Shown here piece by piece: positions 6,810-25,911 of a stretch of 34,972 bases of DNA. Source of the stretch: Betaproteobacteria bacterium (lineage in GTDB: Bacteria > Pseudomonadota > Gammaproteobacteria > Burkholderiales > Burkholderiaceae_A); assembly GCA_016868305.1 (NCBI GenBank), contig VGHK01000022.1:1-34972 (forward strand). Reading direction: 5' to 3'. Numbering within the stretch: the stretch's first letter is position 1; the number at the start of each line of letters is the position of its first letter. The notes under the pieces are model-generated. The model did no database searches. It saw only the letters and a list, made by a program, of their open reading frames with translations, and had not been told where the DNA came from. The position numbers and the translations under genes are program-made.

Positions 6810-6819
6810 ATCGAGCAAA

Positions 6820-7893
6820 TTAATTTGAGGCGGGATTGGATGCAGGTGGCAGAGGCAAGCCTTCTGCGATGGCTACTTGTTCGAGTGCTTTTTCAAAAAG
6901 CATACGAGCAGAGCCAGCGACATGCTGCAAGTAGGCATGCAGTCGCGCGTCAGCAGCGCTTCTGTTGGCACACTCGCTACTGTATTTTTCAAAGGATGAG
7001 ACCTGCAGAAGCAACTCTGCCAAGTGGCTGGGACACTCACATGCGACCGTCGTGGAAAGTCCAGCAAATTGAGTTAGGGCAGCATCGTCAAACAAGGGGG
7101 GCGAGACCGTTTGTTCACCAAGGCCGACTGAAACAAGTGGTGTTGAATGTCGAACGTCAGTAGCTTTTTTTCCTTGTGCATCGTTGCGCTGCAAGGTCGC
7201 TAGCCATTGGCGCAGTAATTTGTCATCTGAAGGCTCAGACAAAACTTCCACCCCAGCATTCGTTAACTCTGCTCGTGCTGCTGCGCTGGAAAAGCGATAC
7301 AAAACCGCCACTGAAGAGGCACGCCATGCGTCTTGGGCTTCAATTAGTTCTTTGTGAATGCCAGTTTGAAGGCTTCCAGCTTGCAAGATGATCATGTCGG
7401 CGGTGTCTTCATCCGACATCCCTCCAGCTTTTGCTGATGCGTTCAAACTGTCAAATACTCCCACCAGTTGCACCTTCAGCCCGAAGGGCTGTAGGTAAAG
7501 CAAGCGCTGTACTCGGCTTGCCAAGGAATGCCCGACCACCACAATCTTTATTGAACTTTGCAAATGAGATTCAACCCAATTAGCTTGAGTTACCTCAGGG
7601 GCACGCATCATTTCCCGCATTTGTTCTGTCTCTAGTGAAGCAAGCAATCTAATGGCATGCCCCTGCGCGGTCAGCCGACGCAGCAGGGTAGCTCTCTCCA
7701 CATCTGCTGGCGAATACAACCGATGACCTGATGCTGCAGTGTTGGGACGTACAGCCTGGTAGCGCTGCTCCCAAATGCGCAACGTGGCAACGGGCATACC
7801 CGCAATCCTCGCCACAGCACCAGCTCTAAAAGTGGGCTGTGTTTTGTTTTGCTGAGTAGCTTGTGATGTACCTGCGGTGTCGGAAAGCGGCAT
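6820..7893 (-). CDS. MerR-family regulator of the photolyase cluster (LitR/CarH-like architecture)
   Basis: The protein has 357 residues. A MerR winged-helix domain occupies about residues 22-90 (FRAGAVARIAGMPVATLRIW, then SGHRLYSPADVERATLL). Residues 114-240 form an alpha/beta domain resembling a cobalamin-binding fold, but the DxHxxG cobalamin motif is degenerate: the region reads VVVGHSLASR, keeping a His and losing the Asp and Gly. The C-terminal helical domain (about 275-350; ACECPSHLAELLLQVSSFEKY) is one I associate with MerR proteins next to photolyases in Betaproteobacteria. LitR/CarH proteins repress light-inducible genes using adenosylcobalamin as chromophore. Here B12 sensing is doubtful. 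It diverges from ubiG and the photolyase operon, so control of that operon and of itself is the likely role. ATG 7893 has a weak GGA ribosome site. Confidence 0.85.
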   Translation of the reverse strand: MPLSDTAGTSQATQQNKTQPTFRAGAVARIAGMPVATLRIWEQRYQAVRPNTAASGHRLYSPADVERATLLRRLTAQGHAIRLLASLETEQMREMMRAPEVTQANWVESHLQSSIKIVVVGHSLASRVQRLLYLQPFGLKVQLVGVFDSLNASAKAGGMSDEDTADMIILQAGSLQTGIHKELIEAQDAWRASSVAVLYRFSSAAARAELTNAGVEVLSEPSDDKLLRQWLATLQRNDAQGKKATDVRHSTPLVSVGLGEQTVSPPLFDDAALTQFAGLSTTVACECPSHLAELLLQVSSFEKYSSECANRSAADARLHAYLQHVAGSARMLFEKALEQVAIAEGLPLPPASNPASN

Positions 7894-7903
7894 TTTTTTT
7901 CCA

Positions 7904-7980
7904 ATGAGTTGAATTTGAGTTTGATTATTACACCTTTTTTGATCTATTGAGTTGATTTTTTTCTTTTAAACGCTACAATA
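7904..7980. promoter_or_regulatory. Divergent control region: candidate promoter and TTGA-rich operator repeats
   Basis: A plus-strand promoter candidate has -35 TTGATT (7952-7957), a 16-base spacer and -10 TACAAT (7974-7979), directed at the ubiG-photolyase operon. Overlapping it and the region toward merR are repeated TTGA/TTGAG elements: TGAGTTGAATTTGAGTTTGA at about 7905-7924 and TTGATCTATTGAGTTGA at 7940-7956. They share the TTGAGTTGA-like core. I infer that these are binding sites for the divergent MerR regulator; no binding is shown. Confidence 0.5.
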
Positions 7981-8074
7981 GTGTTTTTTTGACCAACTCG
8001 CACCACCATCAAAGTCGTTAGTCAAGCTCAAAAGCTGCGGTGACCTTGATCCGCCATATTTGAGTGATGCAAAA

Positions 8075-8815
8075 ATGACAGCTATCGCAGCAGAAATCGA
8101 ACGCTTTAACCGCCTGAGTGCCACTTGGTGGGACAGCCGTGGACCCATGCGGCCTCTGCACGTTGTTAACGCCCTAAGGCTTGACTTCGTAGTCGAACAA
8201 ATTGCCTCGCATTTGAATCGAGTCAGATCCAATGCGCTAAATGGGCTGAGAATTTTGGATGTGGGATGCGGCGGCGGCTTGATGTCTGAAGCGCTGGCTC
8301 GCTTCGGAGCTAACGTCGTTGGCGTGGATGCTTCACCAGGTAACGTCGCCGCTGCTCGCCTGCACGCTCAATCGCAGAACGTCAAAGTTGACTATCGGCT
8401 CGGCGAACTCGCCGAAGTACTTTCCCCAAACGAGCGTTTTGACGTGGTGCTCGCGCTTGAGGTAGTCGAACACGTGAGTGACGTACCCGCATTTTTGGCC
8501 GGCGCCGCTGACCGTCTCGCCCCAGGCGGCATGCTCTTTGTCTCCACCATCGATCGTACTTTCAAGAGCTTTGCAGTGGCCATCGTTGGAGCTGAATACC
8601 TGCTGCGAGTTCTGCCGCGCGGCACCCATCAGTGGTCAATGTTCGTGCGTCCCGAAGAGTTGCGGTCTGCTTTGGCTCCCTCAACATTACACATGAATAA
8701 CTTGCGCGGCATGCGCTACTTGCCTGTATTGCACAAAGCTTCGTGGTGCAAGGACACAAAGGTGAACTACATCGCCACGTTCACGCACGCTGCCCGTTCC
8801 AACCTCGTCCATTAA
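8075..8815 (+). CDS. ubiG: UbiG-type SAM-dependent O-methyltransferase (ubiquinone biosynthesis family)
   Basis: The protein has 246 residues, close to the usual ~240 for UbiG, which methylates two hydroxyl groups of ubiquinone intermediates using S-adenosylmethionine. Family features are EIERFNRLSATWWD at the N-terminus, the SAM motif ILDVGCGGGLMSEAL, the EVVEHV motif, VGAEYLLRVLPRGTH, and the C-terminal VNYIATF. ATG 8075 was chosen over an in-frame TTG at 8060. It is the first gene of the rightward photolyase operon, with eight bases to the next start. As Burkholderiales usually carry ubiG elsewhere as well, this may be a second copy acting on another substrate; that is inference. Confidence 0.85.
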   Translation: MTAIAAEIERFNRLSATWWDSRGPMRPLHVVNALRLDFVVEQIASHLNRVRSNALNGLRILDVGCGGGLMSEALARFGANVVGVDASPGNVAAARLHAQSQNVKVDYRLGELAEVLSPNERFDVVLALEVVEHVSDVPAFLAGAADRLAPGGMLFVSTIDRTFKSFAVAIVGAEYLLRVLPRGTHQWSMFVRPEELRSALAPSTLHMNNLRGMRYLPVLHKASWCKDTKVNYIATFTHAARSNLVH

Positions 8816-8823
8816 AGGCCTCC

Positions 8824-10383
8824 ATGCACCTTGTTAGACATCTAATTTTGGTGCTGGGCGATCAACTCGACTTAGACGCTGCAGCCTTTGACGGATTTGA
8901 TCCCGCACAAGACGCTGTGTGGATGGCTGAAGCTCACGAAGAGTCCACACTCGTTTGGTCAAGCAAGCAGCGAATCGCCTTGTTTTTGAGCGCCATGCGT
9001 CACTTCGCACAAGCACTGCGCGACGCGGGCCGACCGCTTTACTACCACCGGCTCGACGGACCCGGCGCTGCCGCCAATCTGCAAAGTCTTGGAGCCAAGC
9101 TGCAGGCTGATATTGCTTCCCTAGCGCCTCAGCGCGTAGTGATGACCGCGCCGGGCGATTGGCGCGTGTTCCAGCAACTCAAGGCTGCGGTCGAGGCTGC
9201 AGGTCTAAAGTTGGAAGTTTGCGAAGACCGGCACTTCTTTACGACAGTGAGTGAGTTCGTAGCGCATGCCAGTGGGCGCAAGTCGCTGCGGCTGGAGTAT
9301 TTTTACCGCGAGCTGCGGCAACGCTACAACATCCTGATGGACGACGGCAAGCCCACGGGTGGCCAGTGGAATTTTGACGCCGACAACCGCGAAGCCTTTG
9401 GTCCTGAAGGCCCCGGCCAGGTCCCGGCCCGCGCGACCTTCGACCCCGACGCCCTTACGCAAGAAGTCATTGCACTGGTGAACACCCGCTTTGCTGACCA
9501 CCCCGGCACGCTCGATAGTTTTGCCTGGCCAGTTACACGCAGCCAAGCCTTGCAAGCATTGCAGCGCTTTGTTGATGAGCGTCTGCCGCTTTTTGGACGC
9601 TATGAAGATGCCCTATGGCCTGGCGAGCCCTGGCTGTACCACTCGCATCTGTCCTCAGCCATGAACCTCAAACTTCTCAGTGCACATGAGGTCGTTCATG
9701 CGGCAGAGGCTGCCTACCGGGCTGGTCATGCGCCGCTTCAAAGCGCTGAGGGGTTTATCCGCCAGATCCTGGGATGGCGCGAATACGTGCGCGGTATTTA
9801 CTGGATGCAAATGCCCAGCTACATCGAGCGCAATGCCCTGAATGCCAAGGAAGAATTACCAGACTGGTTTTGGACAGGTAAGACAGACATGGCCTGCTTG
9901 CGCGATGCCATCACGCAGACTCTTGAACACGGCTATGCGCACCACATACAGCGCCTGATGGTCACAGGCCTTTATGCCCTGCTGCTGGGCGTGCGGCCCC
10001 AGCAGGTTCACGCTTGGTACCTGTCGGTTTATGTGGACGCAGTCGAGTGGGTGGAATTGCCCAACACCTTGGGAATGAGCCAGTACGGCGACGGCGGCCT
10101 CATGGCAAGCAAGCCCTATGTTGCGACGGGCAAGTACATCCAGCGCATGGGTGGGCCTTGCAAAGGTTGCCGCTACGACCCAGCGCTGCGCGAGGGTGAA
10201 CGTGCCTGCCCTTACACCACGCTGTACTGGGATTTTCTGATACGACACGAAACACTGCTGGCCAAAAACCCCCGCATGGCTTTGCAGGTCAAAAACGTGG
10301 TGCGCATGACTGACAGCCAAAAGCAAGCTGTGACGCTTCGTGCCGATGCAATTCGCCGTGGTGTAGTCGGTGTAGCACAATGA
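8824..10383 (+). CDS. phrB: Iron-sulfur (FeS-BCP/PhrB-type) photolyase, likely (6-4) photolyase
   Basis: This is a 519-residue cryptochrome/photolyase with an N-terminal photolyase-related domain (HLILVLGDQLD) and a C-terminal FAD-binding domain (GFIRQILGWREYVRGIYW; NTLGMSQYGDGGLMASKPY). The four Cys expected to hold a [4Fe-4S] cluster are present at 358, 446, 449 and 462. Their spacing (88, 3, 13) is the same as in Agrobacterium PhrB (350, 438, 441, 454). That family repairs UV (6-4) photoproducts with light, using FAD and a lumazine antenna. The ATG at 8824 follows the ubiG stop by eight bases; the longer frame into ubiG is not coding. Its stop overlaps the next gene's start as ATGA, indicating tight translational coupling to the second photolyase-like gene. 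Confidence 0.93.
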   Translation: MHLVRHLILVLGDQLDLDAAAFDGFDPAQDAVWMAEAHEESTLVWSSKQRIALFLSAMRHFAQALRDAGRPLYYHRLDGPGAAANLQSLGAKLQADIASLAPQRVVMTAPGDWRVFQQLKAAVEAAGLKLEVCEDRHFFTTVSEFVAHASGRKSLRLEYFYRELRQRYNILMDDGKPTGGQWNFDADNREAFGPEGPGQVPARATFDPDALTQEVIALVNTRFADHPGTLDSFAWPVTRSQALQALQRFVDERLPLFGRYEDALWPGEPWLYHSHLSSAMNLKLLSAHEVVHAAEAAYRAGHAPLQSAEGFIRQILGWREYVRGIYWMQMPSYIERNALNAKEELPDWFWTGKTDMACLRDAITQTLEHGYAHHIQRLMVTGLYALLLGVRPQQVHAWYLSVYVDAVEWVELPNTLGMSQYGDGGLMASKPYVATGKYIQRMGGPCKGCRYDPALREGERACPYTTLYWDFLIRHETLLAKNPRMALQVKNVVRMTDSQKQAVTLRADAIRRGVVGVAQ

Positions 10384-11606
10384 CAATGCTAGACACCTTT
10401 CCGCCCACGCGCCAAGCTGCATTGGCCCGAGTCAGTGACCTGATACCTAGCGACTATGCGCGCAGCCGCAACGCCCTTGAGGGTGCAGTCACAGGGCTGT
10501 CGCCTTACATCACCCATAGATTGATCAGCCTGCCCGAGGTTCTGGCCGGTGTGACCGCCAAGCACCCGCTGGATGTCCAGCACAAGTTCGTGGTCGAGTT
10601 GGGTTGGCGCGAATACTTTCGACATGTCTGGGCGTTTCGAGGTAACGAAATTTTTGAATCTCTACACGAAGGCCCGCTGCCTCACGCGAGCTACGCTGCC
10701 ATGCTGCCTGCCGACATTCGCCAAGGTGCTACCGGTGTACCTGTCATTGATATGGCCGTACGCACCTTGTACGAAACTGGCTATTTGCACAACCATGCCC
10801 GCATGTGGCTAGCCAGCTACATCGTTCACGTGCGCAAAGTGGACTGGCGGATTGCTGCAGACTGGCTTTACAGCCATCTGCTAGACGGCGATCTTGCCAG
10901 CAACCACCTCAGTTGGCAGTGGGTGGCTGGCACCGGCAGCAGCAAGCCATACCTTTTCAATGCAGACAACGTTGCCCGCTACGCGCCTGCTTCCTGGCAC
11001 AGCCCGGGCAGTGTGATCGACCAATCCTATGAAGCGTTGGACAGACTCGCGCGACAACCCACTCGCCGCGTACCTACCCGCGCCCGCGCCGAGCATGACT
11101 CGACCACCTCAGACGCGCTGATCGAACCTTTGCTGCTTGCAGAACCGCCATCAGACCTTGGTTGGGCACAGCCTGACGCTGCTGCTGTAGCAGGCCGCGA
11201 TGTATGGCTGGTGCACCCCTGGAACTTGGGAGATCTGCCCACTACCTTGCCTGCAAACACGGTGGTGGTAGGCGTCTTTATCACCGACTTTCACCGCGCC
11301 TGGCCTTGGAGCGAGCGACGCTGGCGTTTTGTTGCCACCCGAATGGCTGAACTTACTGCGTTGCGTTGGCGAAGTGATGCGACTGTAATTGGTGCAGCAC
11401 TGCAAGGTGCTGCCCGTGTGCGCAGCGTGGAAGAGCCGCACCTTGCACCGTGGTTAGCAAGCTTAGCATTTTGCGAAGCGGCGGTTGAGCTTTTCCCGGC
11501 GGTTAATCGACGCTGCGACTCCTTTAGCCAGTGGTGGACTCGGGCATCGCGCAGCTTTGCAACAGCATCTGACTTGCTGGCTGCACGACAAACGCCAGCG
11601 TGGTGA
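10380..11606 (+). CDS. Photolyase-like FAD-binding protein with apparently inverted domain order
   Basis: The protein has 408 residues. Residues 20-205 match the C-terminal FAD-binding domain of class I photolyases/cryptochromes: GWREYFRH, TGYLHNHARMWLASYIVH, DWLYSHLLDGDLASNHLSWQ and STG-like AGTGSSKPY. The usual N-terminal alpha/beta antenna domain is missing from the front. Instead, after a linker rich in Arg and Ala, residues ~275-408 (VWLVHPWNLGDLP, VVVGVFITDFHRAWPWSERR, FSQWWTRASR) look like a shortened alpha/beta photolyase domain placed at the C-terminus. I infer a circularly permuted photolyase-like protein. DNA repair and photoreceptor roles are both possible. It overlaps the previous gene by four bases. 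Confidence 0.8.
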   Translation: MTMLDTFPPTRQAALARVSDLIPSDYARSRNALEGAVTGLSPYITHRLISLPEVLAGVTAKHPLDVQHKFVVELGWREYFRHVWAFRGNEIFESLHEGPLPHASYAAMLPADIRQGATGVPVIDMAVRTLYETGYLHNHARMWLASYIVHVRKVDWRIAADWLYSHLLDGDLASNHLSWQWVAGTGSSKPYLFNADNVARYAPASWHSPGSVIDQSYEALDRLARQPTRRVPTRARAEHDSTTSDALIEPLLLAEPPSDLGWAQPDAAAVAGRDVWLVHPWNLGDLPTTLPANTVVVGVFITDFHRAWPWSERRWRFVATRMAELTALRWRSDATVIGAALQGAARVRSVEEPHLAPWLASLAFCEAAVELFPAVNRRCDSFSQWWTRASRSFATASDLLAARQTPAW

Positions 11607-11624
11607 GACCGTTTGAACCAAACT

Positions 11625-12032
11625 ATGAACAATACAAATCAGACCAACTCAAGCCAGTGCAATGGATTACTGACCGTGCTCTACGACGGCGCGTGCCCGC
11701 TATGCAGGCGCGAAATTGCCGTCTACCGAGACCTGCAACCGCTACAACCAGGCTCGACTGTGAGCTTTGCCGACATCAGCGACACGGCTGTACCACTGCC
11801 AGCCGGTACAACTCGCGAACAGTTACTGGCGCGGTTTCATGTGCAAGGCCGCGATGGTCAACTGCTAAGCGGAGCTCAGGCATTTTTGGCCTTGTGGGCC
11901 GCCCTACCCGGTTGGCGCTGGCTGGCCATGATCGGACGCTTGCCGGGAGCTGGCTGGATGATGGAGCGGATGTACCGGTTATTTTTAAGGTGGCGGCCAA
12001 CGATTCAGCGCTGGGCATTGCGCTGGGACTGA
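11625..12032 (+). CDS. DCC-family thiol-disulfide oxidoreductase (YuxK/DUF393)
   Basis: The protein has 135 residues. Near the start is the family signature VLYDGACPLCRREI, with a CPLC redox pair and the D-G of the DxxCxxC motif. Later segments GAQAFLALWAALPGWRWLA and YRLFLRWRP are typical of DUF393. The family is assumed to do thiol-disulfide exchange, but no substrate is established. ATG 11625 is used; TTG at 11613 is in frame and less likely. It starts 18 bases after the photolyase-like gene and belongs to the same operon. A short hairpin and T-run follow at 12063-12083. Confidence 0.85.
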   Translation: MNNTNQTNSSQCNGLLTVLYDGACPLCRREIAVYRDLQPLQPGSTVSFADISDTAVPLPAGTTREQLLARFHVQGRDGQLLSGAQAFLALWAALPGWRWLAMIGRLPGAGWMMERMYRLFLRWRPTIQRWALRWD

Positions 12033-12062
12033 TATCTCTCAACAAAGTCTGCATTTATACGT

Positions 12063-12083
12063 TAAGCAACAGCTTATTTTTTT
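12063..12083 (+). terminator. Weak intrinsic-terminator-like hairpin inside the operon
   Basis: TAAGC (12063-12067), loop AACA and GCTTA (12072-12076) are followed by seven Ts (12077-12083). The stem is only five pairs and AT-rich, so it could attenuate rather than end transcription between the DCC gene and the SDR gene. Confidence 0.4.
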
Positions 12084-12107
12084 CACTCCAGCTTCTCAAG
12101 GCATTTC

Positions 12108-12839
12108 ATGGAATCCATCGTTCTCATTACAGGCGCCAGTGGCGGCGTTGGAAGGGCTCTCGCACATCAACTCCATAGCATGGGACTGCAAGTTGCCGTA
12201 GTCGGGCGTGATATGGACCGTTTGACCAACCTTGATGCGGCATTGCGCATTTCTGCAGACACAACCACGCCGGAAGGCGCAGCACAAGCAATATCAACCT
12301 GCCAAGAGTCGTTGGGCGCGGCGCCCTCGCTGCTGGCACATTGCGTGGGCAGCACTTTGATTGCGCCTCTGCATCGCACCAGTGTGCAAGCCTACCGAGA
12401 GGTCATGCGCATCAATCTGGATAGCGCTGTATTCATGTTTCAGGCTTGGGTTACCGCGCTTCAGGGCGGCCCTGGCGCTGCCGTGATGGCAAGCTCCGTG
12501 GTGGCTCGCATTGGTGTGGCCAACCACGAAGCAATTGCCGCCGCTAAAGGAGGAGTTGAAGCTTTTGTACGCAGTGCCGCTGCAACCTACGCCGCTCAAG
12601 GACTACGCATCAATGCAGTGGCACCTGGTCTGACCGAAACACCCATGACAGCCAACATGCTCAAAATGGCAGCCATGCGCGAGGGCGCTGCACGCCAGTA
12701 CCCATTGGGTGGCATTCAATCAGCTGAGCAGGTCGCCGATGTCATGGCATTTTTACTGGGAGATGGTGCCGCCCGGCTGACGGGTCAGGTCATTGCGGTG
12801 GACGGTGGGTTCACCACTGTCAGGCCCTTGGTGCGTTGA
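12108..12839 (+). CDS. Atypical short-chain dehydrogenase/reductase lacking the catalytic Tyr
   Basis: This 243-residue Rossmann protein has the nucleotide-binding TGASGGVG motif (residues 8-15), structural Asn103 (RINLDSA) and Ser130 (VMASSV). The conserved C-terminal signature ITGQ..VDGG appears as LTGQVIAVDGGFT. At the catalytic YxxxK position the sequence is IAAAK (Ile143, Lys147), exactly 13 residues after Ser130, so the active-site Tyr is replaced by Ile. It therefore may not be a normal oxidoreductase. NAD(P) binding could still serve a sensing or other catalytic role. I recall the HEAIAAAK pattern in homologues near photolyases, so the change is probably a family trait rather than damage. 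It follows the DCC gene by 75 bases. Confidence 0.85.
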   Translation: MESIVLITGASGGVGRALAHQLHSMGLQVAVVGRDMDRLTNLDAALRISADTTTPEGAAQAISTCQESLGAAPSLLAHCVGSTLIAPLHRTSVQAYREVMRINLDSAVFMFQAWVTALQGGPGAAVMASSVVARIGVANHEAIAAAKGGVEAFVRSAAATYAAQGLRINAVAPGLTETPMTANMLKMAAMREGAARQYPLGGIQSAEQVADVMAFLLGDGAARLTGQVIAVDGGFTTVRPLVR

Positions 12840-12857
12840 CTGACAATTTTCAGTTCC

Positions 12858-13418
12858 ATGAAGCACGGCTTAGAGACATCGCAGGATATTCGCCAGCAAA
12901 TTTGGAAGGAGCTTGGCCGCGCCAGCGTAGACCGTCACCACGCCTGGCGAACTCCTGTGCTTGCCACAGTGGGTTGCGATGGCTCGCCCAATGCACGCAC
13001 AGTAGTGCTTCGTAAGGTAGACGGCAACCAACAGACGCTTTGCTTTTATACGGACGCACGCAGCGCAAAGGTCAGCGAACTTACAAAAGAGCCCAAGGCG
13101 GTACTTGCCTTTTGGAGTGGTCGGCTTAACTGGCAACTGCGCGTAAAAGTTGAAATTTCAGTTGCCACAGACGGTCCTGAAATTCAAGCCCTTTGGCAGC
13201 GGATCCAGCAGTCGGCATCTGCTTCAGACTACTTGGCTACTGAAGCCCCAGGCACCGAGCGCACTACAGGATTCAGAATCGCGCAAAATCTGAGTGGTGA
13301 CCATCATTTCGCCTTATTGAACGCCCAAGTCCTCCAGATGGACTGGTTGGAATTGGGCCATGGCGCACATCGACGTGCGCGCTTGAGCGCCGACACATGG
13401 CAGTGGCTCATCCCCTGA
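12858..13418 (+). CDS. Pyridoxamine 5'-phosphate oxidase-like flavoprotein
   Basis: The protein has 186 residues and a split-barrel FMN-binding fold. The visible family pattern is TPVLATVGCDGSPNARTVVL, then LCFYTDARSAKVSEL and AVLAFWSGRLNWQLRVK. It resembles the Alr4036/PNPOx_2 group rather than true PdxH, so vitamin B6 synthesis is not assured. It may reduce or oxidise another small substrate with FMN. It starts 18 bases after the SDR gene and appears to be the last intact gene of the photolyase operon; a separate promoter region for the broken gbsR gene follows. Confidence 0.85.
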   Translation: MKHGLETSQDIRQQIWKELGRASVDRHHAWRTPVLATVGCDGSPNARTVVLRKVDGNQQTLCFYTDARSAKVSELTKEPKAVLAFWSGRLNWQLRVKVEISVATDGPEIQALWQRIQQSASASDYLATEAPGTERTTGFRIAQNLSGDHHFALLNAQVLQMDWLELGHGAHRRARLSADTWQWLIP

Positions 13419-13480
13419 AAAATTCAAACAAAACCCTCCGCCTTCCAATGTCTTAAATGGCGATAACTTCTCAGATTTAC

Positions 13481-13514
13481 TGTAAGTTTTACAATTTCAA
13501 GAATTACTGAAATT
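13481..13514. promoter_or_regulatory. Palindromic elements upstream of the gbsR remnant
   Basis: TGTAA-GTT-TTACA (13481-13493) is a perfect short palindrome. AATTTCA (13493-13499) and TGAAATT (13508-13514) form a second inverted repeat. A -10-like TACAAT sits at 13490-13495. The pair lies just before the GTG of the GbsR/MarR gene, so autoregulatory operator sites are likely; this is inference from position and symmetry. Confidence 0.4.
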
Positions 13515-13524
13515 TGGAGAACCT

Positions 13525-13749
13525 GTGAATTTGCCACCTTTGACCCAACGCTTTGTTCTGCACTTTGGCGAGATGGGCGGCCGCTGGGGCATCAACCGAA
13601 CAGTTGGACAAATTTACGCACTGCTGTTTGTCTCACCCAAGCCGCTTAACGCAGATGAATTGGGAGAGGCTCTGGGGTTTTCTCGGTCCAACGTCAGCAT
13701 GGGGTGCAAGGGGTCGGATGTTCGAATCATCTCGCCCCGACCAATCTAG
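13525..13749 (+). pseudogene. GbsR/MarR-family regulator truncated and fused to a tRNA-Pro 3' end
   Basis: The first ~58 residues read as the N-terminal winged-helix portion of a GbsR/MarR regulator (LTQRFVLHFGEMGGRWGINR, GQIYALLFVSPKPLNADEL, LGFSRSNVSMG). Such proteins are normally about 180 residues. Immediately after the codons for SNVSMG the DNA stops resembling the regulator and becomes the 3' half of a tRNA-Pro gene. The frame then runs through tRNA sequence to a TAG at 13747-13749, giving a 74-residue chimera. It starts with GTG, preceded by TTTGGAGAACCT (GGAG ribosome site). The recognition helix and dimerisation regions are lost, so it is surely non-functional. Confidence 0.85.
13698..13743 (+). 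tRNA. 3' half of tRNA-Pro(GGG), partial
   Basis: The sequence from GCATGGGGTGCAAG to CGCCCCGACCA matches the 3' part of tRNA-Pro(GGG). It has anticodon loop ATGGGGT (13699-13705) with anticodon GGG at 13701-13703, 3' anticodon strand GCAAG, and T-arm GGATG-TTCGAAT-CATCT (five pairs including one G-U). The 3' acceptor strand CGCCCCG, discriminator A and encoded CCA (13741-13743) follow. The 5' half (acceptor CGGGGCG, D-arm, 5' anticodon strand) is absent; gbsR coding sequence takes its place. This is the typical shape of an att-site tRNA fragment. Confidence 0.85.
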
Positions 13750-13775
13750 TTTCAGTGACAGTGATTACTGAATTA

Positions 13776-13836
13776 CAATTACGGTGACAGTTTACTTAAT
13801 TCACTTCGTGAATTAAGTAAACTGTCACCGTAATTG
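13776..13836. repeat. 29-bp perfect inverted repeat with a 3-base loop
   Basis: The left arm at 13776-13804 (from CAATTACGGTGACAGT) and right arm 13808-13836 are exact reverse complements, separated by TTC. Just upstream (13751-13775) lies a degenerate copy with the same GTGACAGT and ACTGAATT words. The element sits eight nucleotides beyond the stop side of nothing obvious on the left and 17 bases from the hemerythrin stop on the right. It could act as a bidirectional terminator, or be a REP/MITE-like mobile palindrome; the perfect symmetry suggests recent origin or selection. Confidence 0.85.
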
Positions 13837-13852
13837 ATTGCGTCATTCAGAA

Positions 13853-14404
13853 TTAAACGTAGCCGGTAACCCGCAAGGGGGTATGCCGCATATGCAAAGA
13901 CATACCGAGAGCGGCGATGCCATTGGGATTGCGGGCGAGAATCTCTTCTGACAAGGGCAGAAATGCGGTCTCTTCGAACTCCGCATGGGCCCGGTAACGG
14001 CTGGTTAACTGGGCAATCGCCTCAAGGTCAACGTCGCTTTCCTTGCCCTTGGCCACACGCTTTAGGTCTCCCTCAAGCGACTTCCAGAGCTTTTCAAGGG
14101 TACGGTGCTCTTCGGTCAGTCGATCAATAATCTGGCGAACACGCGGGCGCTCCTCCCCTTCGCGGGTCTCGGCGAGCACCGCCGGAAACAGTTCGCGCTC
14201 TTCGTCTAGATGATGTTCGAAAATGGCTTCGCGAAAAAATTCGACAGACTGTTCCGAAAGCTGGCGGGCACGCTGAAACTTGGGGAGAAGCTCGGCCAGC
14301 TCGGTGAGCGCCTCTAACTTCCTAAAGATGCCGGAATGGCAGTTTTTGAAGTCGGAAATGGGGGCGTAGTCTTGGCTGGCGGTCTGGGATTCGGGGGTCT
14401 TCAT
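13853..14404 (-). CDS. Hemerythrin HHE-domain protein
   Basis: The protein has 183 residues with helices carrying the di-iron ligand pattern: His23 (NCHSGIF), His64/His65 and Glu68 (FEHHLDEERELFP), His100 and Glu104 (EEHRTLEKLW), and a later His and Glu in YRAHAEFEETAFLP. Hemerythrin-like proteins bind O2 or NO, or act in iron-sulfur repair and oxygen sensing. I chose ATG 14404, preceded by GAGAGG, over the longer frame beginning at 14464. An FNR/ANR-like box lies about 87-100 bases upstream, suggesting induction under low oxygen. Confidence 0.88.
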   Translation of the reverse strand: MKTPESQTASQDYAPISDFKNCHSGIFRKLEALTELAELLPKFQRARQLSEQSVEFFREAIFEHHLDEERELFPAVLAETREGEERPRVRQIIDRLTEEHRTLEKLWKSLEGDLKRVAKGKESDVDLEAIAQLTSRYRAHAEFEETAFLPLSEEILARNPNGIAALGMSLHMRHTPLRVTGYV

Positions 14405-14490
14405 AGTTGCCTCTCGTGGCGCTTTTGCAAGGGCCCGCTGCCCTGCGCAGCAGGTTAGCTGCAAGGTAGCAGACCCGTCTGAAGATCCGC

Positions 14491-14504
14491 TTGATCTAGA
14501 TTAA
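14491..14504. promoter_or_regulatory. FNR/ANR-like box (TTGATCTAGATTAA)
   Basis: TTGAT-CTAG-ATTAA matches the FNR/ANR consensus TTGAT-N4-ATCAA with one mismatch. On the minus strand a -10-like TACCTT sits at 14463-14468. It would place the box centre (14497.5) at about -41 relative to the start of hemerythrin transcription, the class II activator position. It could also affect the divergent B12 receptor transcript. Confidence 0.6.
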
Positions 14505-14587
14505 GGCCACGTCAACATTTATGACCCCTACCGGTGTCATTTTCTTGTTACACTTGCAGCTGTTCATTCTTGTGTGAACAGCCTGTC

Positions 14588-14830
14588 ATGGTGCCCATTT
14601 AGCGTGGGGTAAACGGGAAGTTGGTGCGAATCCAATGCTTTCCCCGAAACAGTAACGGGTGTCTGGCTCTTCGATGTGCTGCCTCCACAGCCATCGGTCA
14701 CTGGATCAGGCGTTCGGCCTTTTGGCCTCTACGCCTAGTCTGGGAAGGCGAGCACAGACGGAGGAAGGCTTCCACAGACCCTGTCTGCGGAACCAGTCCT
14801 CCAAGCCCGAAGTCTGGATACCGGCCTCTC
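14588..14830 (+). ncRNA. Cobalamin (AdoCbl) riboswitch
   Basis: The leader upstream of the TonB-dependent receptor contains the conserved core GGGAAGTTGGTGCGAATCC (14615-14633), then CCCCGAAACAGTAACGG (14642-14658), a GGGAAGGC element (14741-14748), and a B12-box-like segment AGCCCGAAGTCTGGATACCG (14804-14823) ending near 14826. Order and spacing fit the cobalamin riboswitch family, which shuts off expression when B12 is plentiful. The receptor start lies about 55 bases further on, so translational control through the ribosome site is plausible. Exact ends are approximate. Confidence 0.87.
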
Positions 14831-14883
14831 AGGACCACTTCTGTTCGTCGCTTCGGGGGTTGGGCGGCCTGAAAGGATATCTC

Positions 14884-16902
14884 TTGAAGGTTGCGCGCAT
14901 TGCGTTCGTTGCCGCTTTGGCTCCCATAACGGCTACACAGGCCGACACAACAACCCATCTTGCTCCTGTCGTAGTCACTGCAAGCCGCTCCGTCGAGAGC
15001 GTGGCAGTCGTACCCCAGTTCGTTGAAGTGTTTGACCGGGAAAATATTCGTGCCTCTGGACAGACCAGTATTCCTGATTTTTTGAAGTGGGTAGGTGGGC
15101 TAGAGGTACGCACCACCAATCCGGGCGCTCTTGGTATCAACGCGACTGTAGATATGCGGGGCTTTGGCGCGAGCGCGAAAGACAACACGCTTGTTTTACT
15201 GAATGGCGAGCGGCTTAACCCCATCGATGGCTCATTAGTTCCCTGGGATCGAATACCTGTTGCAGCTGTCTCTCGCATCGAAGTCATTCATGGCTCCGGG
15301 GGGGTGGAATATGGAGATCGTGCAGTGGGCGGCGTGGTCAACATTATTACAAACAGTACCTTTGATCGCGAGCACCGTGCTGAAGTCCTGGTAGGGTCGC
15401 ATGGGATGAAAGGACTCTTTCTATCCACAGGGAAGGCGGCAGAAAGCTCCGCCACCCAGATCCATGTTGAAGAACAACGGGAAGACGGTTGGAGAGAGGG
15501 TTCGCGCGCAAAGCGCACCTCTATAAACCTGACACAACGTTATGAATTGAGAGACGCGGGCTTTCTTGCGGCAAGTCTGCAACTGGGGAAGCGCATGTTC
15601 TACAGTCCGGGGGGAGTCCTCGGACAAGTCGGTCAGGGTGACCGCGATCGCCCTAAGTTCAACAATGTGGACGATCGGACCGACTCTGATGTCTACATTC
15701 TCAGTGTGCAGAGTAGTGGCCCAGTTCCTGGGAATTGGACACTACAAAACCGGTTCTGGGTATACGATCGATCAGATACACAGACAACCCCTTTCTCGAC
15801 CACACCGGTAAAGAGGATCGATCTCGCGAAGCAGGGGTGGGGGCTATCATCTGAGGTAACCCGCGAGTTTACGCACCGCACACGCCTTGTATTGGGTGCT
15901 GATGTCTCCCAAGATCAGGCAACCTACAAGCCCAATACTGGCGATCTGCAGGATGCGAGCCTAGACAACCTTAGCATTTTTGGGTCGCTTAGAAGAGATA
16001 TCGCTTCAGGGCTTCTTGGCTCCCTGGGTGCACGATTTCAGACGCAACATGCAAATGCTTACGATTTCACTGCTGGCGTAGGAGCAAATCGTGCGAAGAA
16101 GCATCAACAAGCCTGGGCATATGAAGCCGGCATCACCTGGACTGATTCACCAATGGCAGACAAGGTTTCCGTTGCCTACGCACGTGGCTACCGGTTTGCC
16201 AATACGGATGAGTTTTGGGGTAGCCAATATCCCGAGGAACTCAATTACGCCCTTCAGAGGGTCTTCACCGGAATATTGAAGCCACAGCAATCCGATAGCC
16301 TCGACCTGACCCTTGGGTGGGCGTCAAAGATGGACCGATTAACGGTAAACTTCTTTGCGTTAACAACGAAAGATGAAATTCGATACTGTGTGCTGGAGGA
16401 CTGCGACTACGGCTCAAATATCAACGCACCAAGAATTGAACGAAGGGGTGTCAATCTCCGTCTGCGGAAGGCGCTGTATAGAAATCTGACGCTGACCGCT
16501 CGCGCAACTATGCAATATGCTGAGTTTGCGCGAGGTGAACTGTCGGGGAAGAAGGTTCCCTTAACTCCAAAAACGCTTGCTGGGTTCGCCTTAGAAAGAG
16601 AGATCACCGCATCCACCAAAACTTCGCTGGCTATGTCTTACGTAGGCAGACAGTTGTACGAAGGCGACGAACTCAACACTCTTGCACGCATTCCGTCTTA
16701 CACAGTGGCAGACATCAGCCTGACAAGAACGGTGGGGCCTTGGTCTCTGCGTGGATCGATCAACAATCTGTTCGACAGCAAATTTGCTTCGTGGGGAGGA
16801 TATGGATTCGTCAATCTCAGTCCGACAAGCTCAGGTTTCAGCTACTACTACTACCCCGCAAGCCCTCGTTCACTTTATTTGAGTATCGCGCGTTCTTTTT
16901 AG
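14884..16902 (+). CDS. btuB: TonB-dependent outer membrane receptor, probable cobalamin (BtuB-type) importer
   Basis: The precursor has 672 residues. A signal peptide (LKVARIAFVAALAPITATQA) is followed by a TonB-box-like APVVVTASR and a plug domain (GQTSIPDFLKWVGGLEVRT, VLLNGERLNP, GVEYGDRAVGGVVNIIT). A long beta-barrel follows, ending in a terminal Phe (YLSIARSF), the outer membrane assembly signal. The start is TTG 14884, chosen because AAAGGATA lies eight bases upstream and because the longer frame runs through the riboswitch. Riboswitch control and the nearby cobC-cobS-cobT genes support cobalamin or cobinamide as substrate. No terminator is visible after the stop. Confidence 0.88.
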   Translation: MKVARIAFVAALAPITATQADTTTHLAPVVVTASRSVESVAVVPQFVEVFDRENIRASGQTSIPDFLKWVGGLEVRTTNPGALGINATVDMRGFGASAKDNTLVLLNGERLNPIDGSLVPWDRIPVAAVSRIEVIHGSGGVEYGDRAVGGVVNIITNSTFDREHRAEVLVGSHGMKGLFLSTGKAAESSATQIHVEEQREDGWREGSRAKRTSINLTQRYELRDAGFLAASLQLGKRMFYSPGGVLGQVGQGDRDRPKFNNVDDRTDSDVYILSVQSSGPVPGNWTLQNRFWVYDRSDTQTTPFSTTPVKRIDLAKQGWGLSSEVTREFTHRTRLVLGADVSQDQATYKPNTGDLQDASLDNLSIFGSLRRDIASGLLGSLGARFQTQHANAYDFTAGVGANRAKKHQQAWAYEAGITWTDSPMADKVSVAYARGYRFANTDEFWGSQYPEELNYALQRVFTGILKPQQSDSLDLTLGWASKMDRLTVNFFALTTKDEIRYCVLEDCDYGSNINAPRIERRGVNLRLRKALYRNLTLTARATMQYAEFARGELSGKKVPLTPKTLAGFALEREITASTKTSLAMSYVGRQLYEGDELNTLARIPSYTVADISLTRTVGPWSLRGSINNLFDSKFASWGGYGFVNLSPTSSGFSYYYYPASPRSLYLSIARSF

Positions 16903-16996
16903 CGAGGACAAGGACCTTTTGGCTTTGTGTCGACGACTACACGAAAGAAAGCGTTAAACTTAGCGTCGTGTGGTCACAAATTAATAGCTCACGCTC

Positions 16997-17245
16997 ATGC
17001 CGATCAAAACCACCATATGTCGTATCGGAAACTCCCGCGGGATCATTCTCCCGGCATCTGTCCTGGAACAGGTCGGGGCATCTGATGCACTGAACCTTTC
17101 GATTGAGAACGGCTGCATTATCCTGGCGCCCGTGCAAGAACCCCGTCAGAGCTGGTTTGATAACGCCGCTGGCTACCAGGCCACGCAAGAAGAGAGCGCA
17201 TGGGAGTCCGGGCGGCTGTCAGAAGATTCCGAGTGGGTCTGGTAA
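16997..17245 (+). CDS. MazE/AbrB-type antitoxin, orphaned
   Basis: This is an 82-residue protein with a swapped-hairpin AbrB/MazE DNA-binding domain (TTICRIGNSRGIILPASVLEQ, then LNLSIENGCIILAP). The acidic and aromatic tail (SAWESGRLSEDSEWVW) is of the kind that wraps and inhibits MazF. It normally pairs with a MazF endoribonuclease gene directly downstream. Here only a nine-codon stump of that gene remains. ATG 16997 has no strong ribosome site. Confidence 0.85.
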   Translation: MPIKTTICRIGNSRGIILPASVLEQVGASDALNLSIENGCIILAPVQEPRQSWFDNAAGYQATQEESAWESGRLSEDSEWVW

Positions 17246-17274
17246 TGGCAGTTAAACGCTTGGACATTCCATGA
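17245..17274 (+). pseudogene. mazF toxin remnant (first nine codons)
   Basis: The antitoxin stop overlaps an ATG as TAATG, the usual mazEF arrangement. It is followed by MAVKRLDIP and a stop. MAVKRLDI strongly resembles the start of MazF/PemK toxins (M..KR.DIYLV), after which the sequence is the 3' end of cobC on the other strand. I infer that a recombination event near 17270 removed the toxin. Confidence 0.6.
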
Positions 17275-17815
17275 CAACAAGCCCCCCGGGGTCGGGCGCG
17301 TGTTTCGGCCATTCGCCTGCACTGGTGATTTTCCTGCTCCCCGCAACAGACAAATAAGCCACTGCCCGAATGACCCCGGCATGTGTGACCCAAACCGCCT
17401 CTTTCACCGCCTGATTGCGTAACTCCTCGATGGCATCGGCCACTCGTTGGATCACTTGCTGCGTACTTTCCACACCGCCAAAACGGTAATGGGCGAAATC
17501 GGCCATCCAGTCATCAAATGCGGTCTGAGGAATTTTGTCCCAGCGCTGAAGCTCCCAAGACCCAAAGTCCATTTCGTTCAGGCGTTGATCGACCACTGGC
17601 GGCTGAAGATCGGAGCGCAAGCGGCACAGTTCAAGCGCTAGCTGCTGCGCTCGTTTCAGACCCGACACCCTCAGGGGTAATCCCAGCGGCAACTCCTTTG
17701 CGGCGGCTCGTGCGGCCTTTAGACTCAGATGATCAATAGCAGCTAAGTCGCTCACACCGTAACAAAGCCCCGCGTCCAGCGCGGCCTTCGCGTGACGTAA
17801 TAGCCAGAGCTTCAC
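17252..17815 (-). CDS. cobC: Alpha-ribazole-5'-phosphate phosphatase (CobC), histidine phosphatase family
   Basis: The protein has 187 residues. It removes the phosphate from alpha-ribazole phosphate, or from adenosylcobalamin phosphate, in the last steps of cobalamin synthesis. The phosphohistidine motif LWLLRHAK is at the N-terminus, CYGVSDL follows, and the second catalytic His is in VWVTHAGVIRAV. GTG 17815 is chosen because GAGG lies five bases upstream, overlapping the cobS stop; GTG 17821 is the alternative. Its final codons overlap the mazF remnant on the other strand, so its 3' end may have been reshaped by the recombination, although the C-terminus (GGLVVMECPSV) looks normal for the family. 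Confidence 0.88.
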   Translation of the reverse strand: MKLWLLRHAKAALDAGLCYGVSDLAAIDHLSLKAARAAAKELPLGLPLRVSGLKRAQQLALELCRLRSDLQPPVVDQRLNEMDFGSWELQRWDKIPQTAFDDWMADFAHYRFGGVESTQQVIQRVADAIEELRNQAVKEAVWVTHAGVIRAVAYLSVAGSRKITSAGEWPKHAPDPGGLVVMECPSV

Positions 17816-17822
17816 CAGCACC

Positions 17823-18623
17823 TCATAAGGCCAGCGCCAAGCCAAGATAGAACAGTAGCTCGCTGAGCTGCTGCGTCGTACCGAGGCCATCGCCGGTAAA
17901 GCCCTGCAGGCGCTGCTGTAATAGTCGCCACGTCCACGCGAAGCCGGCCAATGCGCCCAGCACCCCAGCGAGCCAGGGCAGGCTCGGCGCCATCGAGATG
18001 GCCAGCGCCATGGCGGCCGCCCACCACGTAAGACCTGCCAACAGCCCGGCGGCACTGATAGTCTCGGCTAGGGGCTTACTCTTGGACTGAGCGGTATCGC
18101 CCACATGCGGCAGCGTGTGGATCACAAACAGGGGCGTCAAGCGAGACGTGACATGTGCAGCAAATAGCACCCAGGCCGCCTGCTGCGCTCCTCCGGCTTG
18201 CGTGAGCAAACCCAGCAGAAGCACCTTAGCCAGCAGGGCCAGCATAAGGGCGAGGGCGCCATAGCTGCCAATTCGCGAGTCCTTCATGATCTCCAGTGCG
18301 CGTTCGCGGCCCACAGCACCGCCCAGCCCGTCGGCCGTGTCGGCAAGGCCGTCTTCGTGGAATGCGCCCGTTAGCCAAATACTGAAGGCAGTACTCAGCA
18401 CCGCCGCCACCCAGGGTGCAGCCGGCTGGGCCGCCAAGGTCTGCAGCAGCCCAAAGAACACTAGCGCTGTCAGACCACCCACCACGCAGCCTACTCCAGG
18501 AAAGTGTGCCGCGCTGGCGCGCAGCATCACGGGCGAAAATCCCACCCAGTCTGCAAGCCGCCCCGTGACCGGGATTCGGGTGAAGAACTGAATAGCGATC
18601 AAGAAGTGCCGGATGGGGGACAT
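17823..18623 (-). CDS. cobS: Adenosylcobinamide-GDP ribazoletransferase (CobS)
   Basis: This 266-residue integral membrane protein joins adenosylcobinamide-GDP with alpha-ribazole (phosphate) to make cobalamin. The family's metal-binding motif is clear (FHEDGLADTADGLGG), followed by EIMKDSRIGSYGALAL. The rest is hydrophobic helices. The opening FLIAIQFFTRIPVTG is the classic CobS start, so ATG 18623 is used rather than the longer frame that runs into cobT. It begins four bases after the cobT stop and overlaps the cobC ribosome site, making cobT-cobS-cobC a tight operon. Confidence 0.95.
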   Translation of the reverse strand: MSPIRHFLIAIQFFTRIPVTGRLADWVGFSPVMLRASAAHFPGVGCVVGGLTALVFFGLLQTLAAQPAAPWVAAVLSTAFSIWLTGAFHEDGLADTADGLGGAVGRERALEIMKDSRIGSYGALALMLALLAKVLLLGLLTQAGGAQQAAWVLFAAHVTSRLTPLFVIHTLPHVGDTAQSKSKPLAETISAAGLLAGLTWWAAAMALAISMAPSLPWLAGVLGALAGFAWTWRLLQQRLQGFTGDGLGTTQQLSELLFYLGLALAL

Positions 18624-18627
18624 GCTT

Positions 18628-19686
18628 TTAGCGCACCAAGACTTGAACTTCGCTCTGTCGCGATACACCGGCCGACGCGAAGCTAGCCATCTCGCGCAGG
18701 ATGGCGCAGGCGCTGATAAGCAGCGGCCAGGCAAGGGCGGCTCCCGAGCCTTCGCCCAAGCGCAGGCCGAGGTCTAACAGCGGCTGGGCACGCAGGTGGG
18801 ACAGCATTTGCGCGTGACCGCGTTCGCCCGAGCGGTGGGAGAAGACGCAGCGCTGCAGCACAGCCGGCTGCAGTTTGCTCGCCACCAGCACGGCGGAGGT
18901 GGTAATGAAGCCGTCCACCACAATCACTCGGCGCTCCGCCGCTGCCTGCAGCACCGAACCGACCATGGTGGCGATCTCGAAACCACCGAAGGCGGCGAGC
19001 GCCTCCAGTGGCGCCTTGGCGCCCGGGTGCCGGGCCAGCACTTCTTTGAGAATCTCAATCTTGCGTTGCAACGCTTGAGCACCAAGGCCGGTACCCGCGC
19101 CGGTGCAGTCTACGATGGACAGGCCAGTTAGTCGGCTCATCAGCAAGGAGGCGGCTGAGGTATTGCCAATTCCCATCTCGCCCAGCAGTAGCGCATTACC
19201 TGGCAGGCCTCGGATCAGCGCGGCTCCGTTGGCCAGCGCTTGATCACAATGATCGGCGCTCATCGCCGGACCCTCGAGCGCATCGGTGGTGCCAGGCGCT
19301 ATCTTATGGATCACCAAACGGGCGCGGGGCGCGAAATTGTGTCGCACGCCGCAGTCCACTGCCGTTAGACCGATTCCGTTCTGACGCGCCAGCACGCTAA
19401 CGGCCGCGCCACCAGCCAGGATATTCTCGACCATCTGCCATGTCACGTCGCTTGGATAGGCCGAGATCTTGCGCGCTGCGAGACCGTGGTCGCCTGCGAA
19501 TACCACCATCTGCGGGTCGTTCAGTTCAGGCGCTTCGCTGCCCAGCGTCAGGCCGATTCGTTGCGCCAAACGTTCGATCTGGCCCAGTGAGCCGACCGGC
19601 TTGGTCTTGTTGTCCAGCAGGTTCTGCAGACGGGCGGCCAATTCGGGCTGAGTAATGTCGTCAATGACAGGCATTGTGAAAGACAT
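18628..19686 (-). CDS. cobT: Nicotinate-nucleotide:dimethylbenzimidazole phosphoribosyltransferase (CobT)
   Basis: This 352-residue enzyme (usual length ~350) makes alpha-ribazole phosphate from 5,6-dimethylbenzimidazole and nicotinate mononucleotide. Family segments visible are NKTKPVGSLGQIERLA near the N-terminus, VVFAGDHGLAA, GEMGIGNTS, DCTGAGTG and, near the end, LDLGLRLGEGSGAALA with the presumed catalytic Glu. ATG 19686 is preceded by AAGGAC at seven bases. It is the first gene of the cobT-cobS-cobC operon. No cobalamin riboswitch is recognisable in its 196-base leader. Confidence 0.96.
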   Translation of the reverse strand: MSFTMPVIDDITQPELAARLQNLLDNKTKPVGSLGQIERLAQRIGLTLGSEAPELNDPQMVVFAGDHGLAARKISAYPSDVTWQMVENILAGGAAVSVLARQNGIGLTAVDCGVRHNFAPRARLVIHKIAPGTTDALEGPAMSADHCDQALANGAALIRGLPGNALLLGEMGIGNTSAASLLMSRLTGLSIVDCTGAGTGLGAQALQRKIEILKEVLARHPGAKAPLEALAAFGGFEIATMVGSVLQAAAERRVIVVDGFITTSAVLVASKLQPAVLQRCVFSHRSGERGHAQMLSHLRAQPLLDLGLRLGEGSGAALAWPLLISACAILREMASFASAGVSRQSEVQVLVR

Positions 19687-19882
19687 GTTTTAGTCCTTGT
19701 GAATGATTACCACCCGGGGCAGACCGCTGGGCTGCCGTCCTTAGGCGCGCTCCAAAGGTAAGAGGGCACGCATACTAGTAGATCAGATTCGGTCGGTCTA
19801 CAAGTCTCGTCTGGTAAGCCCCTCGGGCGAAATCCCTCTGGCCGTGTGGAAGCCCGTTTTGCTCGAGATGTTCGCCTAGCGA
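19687..19882. other. Intergenic region between cobT and the DUF2863 gene
   Basis: No gene is seen. An inverted repeat (GGCAG...CTGCC) lies at about 19718-19736 close to the cobT start. The region could hold the cobT promoter and the end of the DUF2863-acnA-side transcript, but I see no clear promoter boxes, terminator or B12 box. Confidence 0.4.
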
Positions 19883-21052
19883 CTAATGCAGATGCTGCCC
19901 AGCAGGCTCGCTTTCCTCGGGAAGCTCGGCATGCACCAGTTCGCCGTCTAAAGTGGGATACAGGGGCGCGCCACAGTCTTCGCAATATTCCATAGGCATG
20001 CGCTGACGCAGAAACTCCACGCGCTGCACGCCGGCCTCTTTGAGCGTGGTCTCGATCTCCTCAAGAACATCGCTCATCTCGTCTTCGGCCCCTAGTAGGG
20101 GCCAGACCACCCCATGAATCACCTCTTCGTCATTGCTCACTAGGAAAGAGATTCGGTATTCCTCAAGCTGCCGGTTATAGCAGCCGGCAACCACGGCAGA
20201 GAGCATGGCTGGGGTAATGCCCAGCGTGGTGGTGAGAAAGGCAACCGACGCAGAGACGGAGAAAGGCCTTGCCGCACGATCGGCGTCGCGGCAGGCCACG
20301 TAATAGGCGCGCGGCAGCATGGGCTCAAAGCCGCAGGCTGGCAGCAGGTGCGTGAGGCTTTCTTGCGCGGCCTTTCGCCAGGCGGCCAGTACCTCATCGC
20401 GGCTCAGAATGCCTTCCTGCCAACGAAAGAGAGACTGCCCCTGCGGCACACTGGCCACCCCCAGAATATAGCGCTGGTCCGCAAGAAACTGCGCGGTTTC
20501 GCCAAGCGACTGGGCGTTAATCGCCAGATGGCCCTTAGGCAGGTTCTGGGCCAGTGACAGCCGCAGGTCTGCTGTTTCGCCAAAGCTTGAGGGCAGTTGA
20601 TCGGGCGAAAAAAAGTAGTTGGCCAGGGCAAGGTCGGCATGCTCGGAAAACACATGCTCTGCCAGAGCAGCCTTCAGTCCCGCCAAGACACTGTCAGTTA
20701 CCGAACGTGTGGGCAGCGGCATACGCGACCAGGCCAGCACCGGCGCGGCAAACAAGAGCAGGTCGCGCGGGCCATCGCTTGAGGCCACGGTGCTGTGCTC
20801 CACCCGGCCTTCGATGGCATCCGCCAGCTCTTCATAGGCGCGTGACTCGCGATCGGCCAGCCGATCAAGCGCTGCGTTGAGCGACCCTTCATCGCCCTGT
20901 TCCAGCAGGGCGTCGATCTCCTGGTCAAGGCGATGCTCCCAGAACCGGTCTTCTGCGCGACTGCCAGACAGTGCCAAGCCCTCAGCGAGCTGAATCAGCA
21001 GGTCGGCCTCTCGCGAGGCCCGGCCGCGCCGTGATGATGGAGATGTTTTCAT
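19883..21052 (-). CDS. DUF2863-family protein, acnA-linked
   Basis: The protein has 389 residues and no known function. It resembles DUF2863, a family I associate with Betaproteobacteria. It opens with a Ser/Arg-rich tail and SREADLLIQLAEGLALSGSR, has LLFAAPVLAWSRMPLP in the middle, and ends in a Cys pair motif (YCEDCGAPLYPT) that could bind metal. ATG 21052 has AAAGGATCTC directly before it. It starts eight bases after the acnA stop and is probably co-transcribed with it. A cytoplasmic location is likely, since no signal or membrane segment is seen. Confidence 0.82.
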   Translation of the reverse strand: MKTSPSSRRGRASREADLLIQLAEGLALSGSRAEDRFWEHRLDQEIDALLEQGDEGSLNAALDRLADRESRAYEELADAIEGRVEHSTVASSDGPRDLLLFAAPVLAWSRMPLPTRSVTDSVLAGLKAALAEHVFSEHADLALANYFFSPDQLPSSFGETADLRLSLAQNLPKGHLAINAQSLGETAQFLADQRYILGVASVPQGQSLFRWQEGILSRDEVLAAWRKAAQESLTHLLPACGFEPMLPRAYYVACRDADRAARPFSVSASVAFLTTTLGITPAMLSAVVAGCYNRQLEEYRISFLVSNDEEVIHGVVWPLLGAEDEMSDVLEEIETTLKEAGVQRVEFLRQRMPMEYCEDCGAPLYPTLDGELVHAELPEESEPAGQHLH

Positions 21053-21060
21053 GAGATCCT

Positions 21061-23754: not shown

Positions 23755-23792
23755 GGTGACGGCTCCCTTGGTCATATAAAAATTTTGTGTAC

Positions 23793-24827: not shown

Positions 24828-24858
24828 GGTGTCTGCGCTGAGAACGGGGATAGAAGGC

Positions 24859-25851: not shown

Positions 25852-25911
25852 AAGGAGCTCCTTATTGCTTCAAGTAAGAGAAATGGAAAGAATTTGAACG
25901 AGGCTGCAGTT

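Follow-up and report, generated by a model that had tools for sequence, protein, structure and literature searches.

An in-frame fusion of a GbsR/MarR regulator gene and the 3′ half of tRNA-Pro(GGG) as the probable border of a genomic island

Introduction

How does a protein gene come to end in half of a tRNA gene? The question is raised by a 34,972-nucleotide stretch of a betaproteobacterial draft genome (termed the window here; it belongs to contig C22), where the first 60 codons of a GbsR/MarR regulator gene continue in frame into an exact 3′ half of tRNA-Pro(GGG). The explanation favoured here, with a probability of about 0.8, is that the junction is the attR of a genomic island in tRNA-Pro(GGG), with gbsR as the island edge. 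Table 1 lists the features of the locus.

Table 1. Features of the window discussed in the text
Feature	Position	Strand	Remarks
Segment common to other genera	6343–13703	+	pieces 88–93% DNA identity, Limnohabitans Rim28 / Rhodoferax MAG
Chimeric 74-aa frame through the tRNA half	13525–13749	+	GTG start, TAG stop
gbsR/MarR 5′ part, 60 codons, edge of imported-looking DNA	13525–13704	+	96.6% aa identity to the intact 185-aa gene, Limnohabitans sp. Rim28 and Rhodoferax MAG
GCATGGG, 7 bp common to gbsR and tRNA-Pro, probable crossover place	13697–13703	+	intact gbsR diverges at 13704
tRNA-Pro(GGG) displaced 3′ half with CCA, plus AT; probable attR	13697–13745	+	49/49 identical to C70:1-49
Native downstream neighbourhood of tRNA-Pro	13746–34972	+	DUF2863 after intact tRNA in 10/14 same-family genomes
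DUF2863 gene (389-aa ORF)	19883–21052	+	within native flank
AcnA-type aconitase, 911 aa	21061–23796	+	within native flank
HpcH/HpaI-like gene	23793–24827	+	within native flank, which runs on beyond

The junction and its reading frame

Residues 1–60 of the chimeric frame are the N-terminus of a GbsR/MarR protein, and the remainder is translated tRNA. The Pfam profile MarR_2 aligns with residues 22–59 over its positions 2–39 of 61 (22.8 bits, below the cut-off of 27); as the match reaches only profile position 39, the domain is cut. A complete GbsR/MarR protein has about 180 aa, and the 60 residues left here are a fragment.

The tRNA part of the junction, positions 13697–13743 plus AT, is repeated without a mismatch on a separate contig, C70, where an intact tRNA-Pro(ggg) is encoded at positions 3–79. 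No tRNA was called by ARAGORN within the window, and the window bases preceding 13697 differ from those of the tRNA; therefore the tRNA 5′ half is absent at the junction. The intact gbsR genes of Limnohabitans Rim28 and the Rhodoferax MAG have a C at 13704, and the window has a G (GTCAGCATGGGC in intact gbsR versus GTCAGCATGGGG at the same place in the window), so that the stretch common to gbsR and the tRNA is exactly GCATGGG. In a scan of 33 gbsR loci the motif searched for was seen in 28, and 24 of these 28 have AGCATGGGN (one chance-match row left out). The anticodon loop of the tRNA, read around ARAGORN's anticodon, is ATGGGGT. It should be noted that GCATGGGG by itself is not rare, with three occurrences in the window versus 2.34 expected; the weight of the junction rests on the 49-base identity together with the endpoint of the gbsR match, and not on GCATGGGG alone. 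Searches for the same junction elsewhere gave no match in a database of genome contigs, and two patterns gave none in viral contigs.

A preliminary description of the locus had proposed an in-frame union of gbsR with a tRNA-Pro(GGG) 3′ half that is intact through CCA and lacks its 5′ counterpart, with about seven shared bases. These points hold in full. The break, placed near codon 58 in that description, actually follows codon 60.

One may ask if the frame is a natural short form of GbsR with this particular ending, as it is open up to a stop. Homologues of gbsR are present in 93 of 399 genomes of the order, host included, and their frames, measured stop to stop, are long (175–272 aa, with four longer still) apart from the host's 87 and one other short frame of 93 aa (G260). 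Moreover, the extra residues are translated tRNA. A natural short form is extremely improbable.

An assembly or library chimera was also considered. The genome is a draft of 97 contigs, and C70 terminates 2 bases past the CCA of its tRNA, just where the 49-base repeat ends. Among 61 contigs compared (ten all N), 10 pairs of ends overlap by exactly 127 bases and one pair by 53, which indicates a k of 127, and a false assembly join across 7 bp is therefore unlikely: at such a k the join needs reads that carry the junction. In addition, a random join would not hit the crossover site. A chimera has very little probability.

The tRNA-Pro(GGG) copies and the right flank

Two copies of the 46-base tRNA 3′ part are found in the host genome with up to three mismatches allowed, namely those at the junction and on C70. 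Upstream of the C70 tRNA are genes for IF-3, ribosomal protein L20, PheT, an HU/IHF-type protein and a MerR-type protein, and by reading of the sequence rpmI and pheS are there as well. The two contigs are unlinked in the assembly; a comparison of 61 contigs (ten all N) gave neither an end overlap nor a third tail that would join the tRNA end of C70.

For 14 same-family genomes (G001–G007, G009–G015), the sequence that follows the tRNA, or its 3′ half, was read. The DUF2863 gene stands downstream of an intact tRNA-Pro(GGG) in ten of these (G002–G007, G010, G011, G013, G015), at distances of <1 kb to ~7 kb, and in G001 it is downstream of a displaced 3′ half. It was not found in G009 (where the contig ends), G012 and G014. 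The window's AcnA-type aconitase is matched in 8 of the 14, and the genes of window positions 19883–34967 stand after intact tRNA-Pro(GGG) in same-family genomes. This order in relatives shows that the DNA from 13746 onward is the proper continuation of the end of tRNA-Pro. Positions 13746–19882 are a variable stretch. G001 has the displaced 3′ half followed by a cobalamin riboswitch and a TonB-receptor-like gene, and the same pair is present in the window, here preceded by a hemerythrin-domain gene.

Several properties of the right flank can be added as separate observations. The cobalamin riboswitch (Rfam RF00174) is at 14576–14843, before the TonB receptor; CobS, DBI_PRT and histidine phosphatase genes follow at 17.2–19.7 kb. 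At the aconitase position (21061–23796), the window and most relatives have the AcnA-type gene and G001 an AcnB-type gene, an apparent swap of enzymes of unrelated subfamilies. A 61-base hairpin with a 29-bp stem (13776–13836; −44.4 kcal/mol, z −14.3) begins 30 bases to the right of the tRNA half. This stretch takes 63 of the 65 matches in the search that also gave the C70 identity (both strands, single arms and the window's own inverted match counted), and its 13-base core is absent from the 17 relatives' loci checked.

The left flank and its relatives in other genera

The segment at 6343–13703 carries genes for DUF4149, MerR, a methyltransferase, a DPRP photolyase-related protein, an FAD-binding photolyase-like protein, a 192-aa ORF, SDR and PNPOx, and then the gbsR 5′ part. 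The second photolyase-like gene matches the FAD-binding domain only. A search for relatives of the PNPOx gene that neighbours gbsR yielded 11 loci. Two of them, from Limnohabitans sp. Rim28 (L225) and the Rhodoferax MAG (L226), have the SDR–PNPOx–gbsR order with a whole 185-aa gbsR, and a gbsR match is absent from the remaining nine. DNA identity to L225 is 93.0% over 1774 bp, and this match stops at window position 13703; for L226 it is 88.7% over 5709 bp, with the alignment reported to 13711, beyond the divergence at 13704. A second, damaged copy in Rim28 (L235) matches in pieces of 88.7–91.7% and reaches left to 6343. Less similar records are those of Limnohabitans Rim8 (L230; 69–83%), L231 (70–83%) and the same-genus genome G004 (L227; 76–83% DNA). 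As an aside, the copy at positions 1694–8280 of L235 shows no match to the FAD-binding photolyase-like gene, and the middle of its PNPOx is missing.

As a yardstick, 19 pieces of core DNA shared by the window and same-family genomes are 69–84% identical (pieces aligned over >400 bp at E ≤ 1e-30, shorter ones left out). With pieces 88–93% identical to the Rim28 and Rhodoferax records against this range, the left flank looks imported from outside, a putative transfer that could have run in either direction. Clusters of this type are nevertheless known within the genus, since G004 has its own related but shorter MerR–DPRP–PNPOx group without gbsR, on the contig of its tRNA-Pro and ~350 kb away from it, and the host has an additional DPRP gene on C10 (66% aa).

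A search of 24 genomes of the same genus or family, several of which are <90% complete, gave no gbsR; the gene is present in the host and in 4 of 16 genomes from other families. The 3′ part of gbsR was not found in the host genome (97 contigs, ten small ones all N). These results bear on the view in the preliminary description, that an element carrying a tRNA half in its attP entered a resident gbsR, the DNA to the right being the element. The left junction would look identical in that case. The right flank, however, is the tRNA's own neighbourhood, which fits a resident gbsR only if that flank moved, and the left side is common to other genera, with gbsR missing from the 24 relatives and its 3′ part from the host. 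This reading is highly improbable. What the description had right is the kind of structure, an att junction with its crossover in the anticodon arm at a 7-bp site inside gbsR; it had host and guest exchanged. Of what it had suggested should lie elsewhere in the genome, the intact tRNA-Pro(GGG) is there, on C70, and the rest of gbsR was not found.

Other displaced tRNA-Pro halves and integrases

Displaced tRNA-Pro 3′ halves are found in other genomes of the order. A pattern that excludes intact tRNA matches 7 of 399 genomes, the host and six others including G029, but it should be pointed out that the pattern itself favours a start in the anticodon arm and gives occurrence, not position. ARAGORN called no tRNA at the seven places (the tRNA in L220 sits elsewhere in the locus). 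The displaced halves of G001 and G029 share their starting place with the one in the window: the BLAST match begins at tRNA base 29 for G001 (with a gap), and at bases 32 and 34 for G029.

In G029 (L079, L078) an intact tRNA-Pro is accompanied by two displaced 3′ halves, at distances of ~2.4 and 58 kb, an arrangement like that of tandem islands. In G008 (L080, 1–34) a contig breaks off inside tRNA-Pro, on the first base of the anticodon loop, and this is perhaps another occupied site.

The neighbours of the displaced halves in G001 and G369 were scanned with Pfam. In G369 the 3′ half adjoins an integrase gene that has both an Arm-DNA-bind_3 and a Phage_integrase domain, and in G001 it adjoins an Arm-DNA-bind_3 fragment. 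The G001 island also has repeats, GATTGGGTACAA, inside both ends, and these repeats are absent at the host junction. An integrase, which the preliminary description had proposed to look for, was found neither near the junction nor on C22. The host genome gives three integrase-family hits, of which two resemble Xer genes and the third, on C73, is degenerate. The latter (L088) sits where its contig ends, close to small ORFs resembling an antitoxin and a nucleotidyltransferase.

Proposed formation of the island edge

A native right flank and an imported-looking left flank together indicate that the tRNA half is the host's own displaced 3′ end, and that gbsR is the island edge. DNA inserted at the anticodon arm would have pushed the original 3′ half of the host tRNA (13697–13745) away from its 5′ half, and a 3′ copy carried by the island would complete the intact tRNA on C70, the attL side. 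On its left, the window would then hold the island's inner right end, with a photolyase cluster common to Limnohabitans and Rhodoferax that probably came in from outside. The attL on C70 and attR on C22 presumably bound one and the same island.

The gene appears to be cut where it is because the GCATGGG in its conserved S-M-G codons equals the 7 bp of the tRNA crossover. Recombination of this internal gbsR site with the original attR, through the island integrase or through slippage between short repeats, would have joined gbsR to the tRNA half, with loss of the right end of the island, including the remainder of gbsR and perhaps the gene for the integrase. Such recombination, by either agent, is the most likely way in which the right end was removed, and the loss was probably a deletion after arrival. 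The gbsR edge has no integrase where G369 and G001 have an integrase gene or a fragment of one, which suggests that a right end, perhaps including the integrase, was lost. That the integrase itself acted at the gbsR/attR site is conceivable; taken alone, deletion by integrase falls somewhat short of even odds.

Slippage is possible with repeats of 7–8 bp. A deletion mediated by microhomology, with no integrase involved and the 7 bp merely a short repeat, is compatible with this and with the lack of an integrase near the junction, but it requires a coincidence, as the break falls where other tRNA-Pro fragments start. It is judged unlikely. To a similarly low degree one may entertain events on the donor side, where an integrase would have recombined the attL of an island with the GCATGGG of a gbsR further along the chromosome and excised a larger circle. 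This circle, its joint consisting of the gbsR 5′ part, GCATGGG and the tRNA 3′ half, would then have entered tRNA-Pro here; junction and attR are the same, and the photolyase cluster would be captured chromosomal DNA. This route would give the junction exactly as observed and leave an intact tRNA at attL, and the six cluster loci scanned (each ≤16.6 kb) contain no called tRNA, so that the cluster is not visibly in a tRNA island there. On the other hand, it requires more events and predicts that the island still contains the old attR as a third tRNA half, and only two copies were found (ten contigs unreadable). Donor-side capture and integrase-free slippage would leave letters identical to those of a deletion by integrase.

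A further candidate, direct integration of a circle through a gbsR pseudo-attP alone, was rejected: it would leave the tRNA 5′ half joined to the gbsR 3′ part, and the C70 tRNA is intact and the gbsR 3′ part was not found.

The preferred reading, an island whose right end was lost by recombination at gbsR, leads to a tentative and rather doubtful generalization, that the S-M-G codons (AGC ATG GGN) of GbsR/MarR genes are a ready-made second crossover site for tRNA-Pro(GGG) integrases. If this is true, islands could lose or gain whole ends at GbsR/MarR genes; here the integrase would have been shed and the photolyase cluster stranded in the chromosome. The locus may offer a base-by-base view of an island edge forming in a cargo gene by way of a 7-bp tRNA crossover sequence, and the intact gbsR copies in other genera permit comparison with the junction. 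In addition, a photolyase cluster common to Burkholderiales genera at high DNA identity is now documented.

Comparison with known systems

The integrase elements at the tRNA-Pro 3′ halves of G001 and G369, with Arm-DNA-bind_3, are taken here to be P4-type. They share the tRNA-Pro(GGG) 3′ half and the break with the present junction, and differ in having an integrase gene or fragment beside the half, where gbsR stands here.

GbsR/MarR proteins are described as regulators of cytochrome bd in the cases of cioRAB (PMC11837568) and CydE (PMC6096048). In keeping with this, a cydA-like gene is downstream of gbsR on the same strand in 30 of 33 loci examined in the order. The gbsR of the photolyase cluster differs: no cydA match is beside it in either of two loci (Limnohabitans Rim28 and the Rhodoferax MAG), a DoxX-domain gene is there instead (tested in Limnohabitans), and in the host gbsR is cut. 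No cydA, expected after gbsR from most homologues, was found in the host genome (the control was positive in 10 of 14), and this absence says little because the closest intact gbsR copies also have no adjoining cydA.

Use of a second site by a tyrosine integrase has a parallel in SGI1, for which a secondary attB and a putative 7-bp overlap region are described (PMC2297512). SGI1 enters an intergenic chromosomal site, whereas here the second site would be within island cargo. A literature search for islands that gain or lose DNA via second sites gave no match at the level of titles or abstract openings, and no claim is made that such cases are unpublished.

The closest comparison is with the class A islands of Islander. 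As outlined for that database, 2083 of 3919 islands are anticodon-centred, the larger class, and 3760 have a 3′ fragment (PMC4383910). Alike are the intact tRNA with a displaced cognate 3′ fragment that reaches the 3′ end, the start of this fragment in the anticodon arm, and native flank beyond the fragment with foreign DNA between, the foreign part being judged by cross-genus identity, transfer direction apart. The differences are that an integrase was not found, the degenerate one on C73 being the single candidate besides the Xer-like genes, and that the far end is unlinked: tRNA and fragment, which in this class lie in the right order on one replicon at 2–200 kb, are here on C70 and C22. 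Islander's CDS filter, as presented there, excludes fragments that overlap coding domains (PMC4383910), and the junction does not pass it: MarR_2 runs to residue 59, base 13701, and the fragment starts at 13697, an overlap of a few bases. This criterion is a filter of the program and not a property of islands, and edges that overlap coding domains may be missed because of it. The structure is an ordinary kind of tRNA island border, and the edge inside gbsR is its unusual part.
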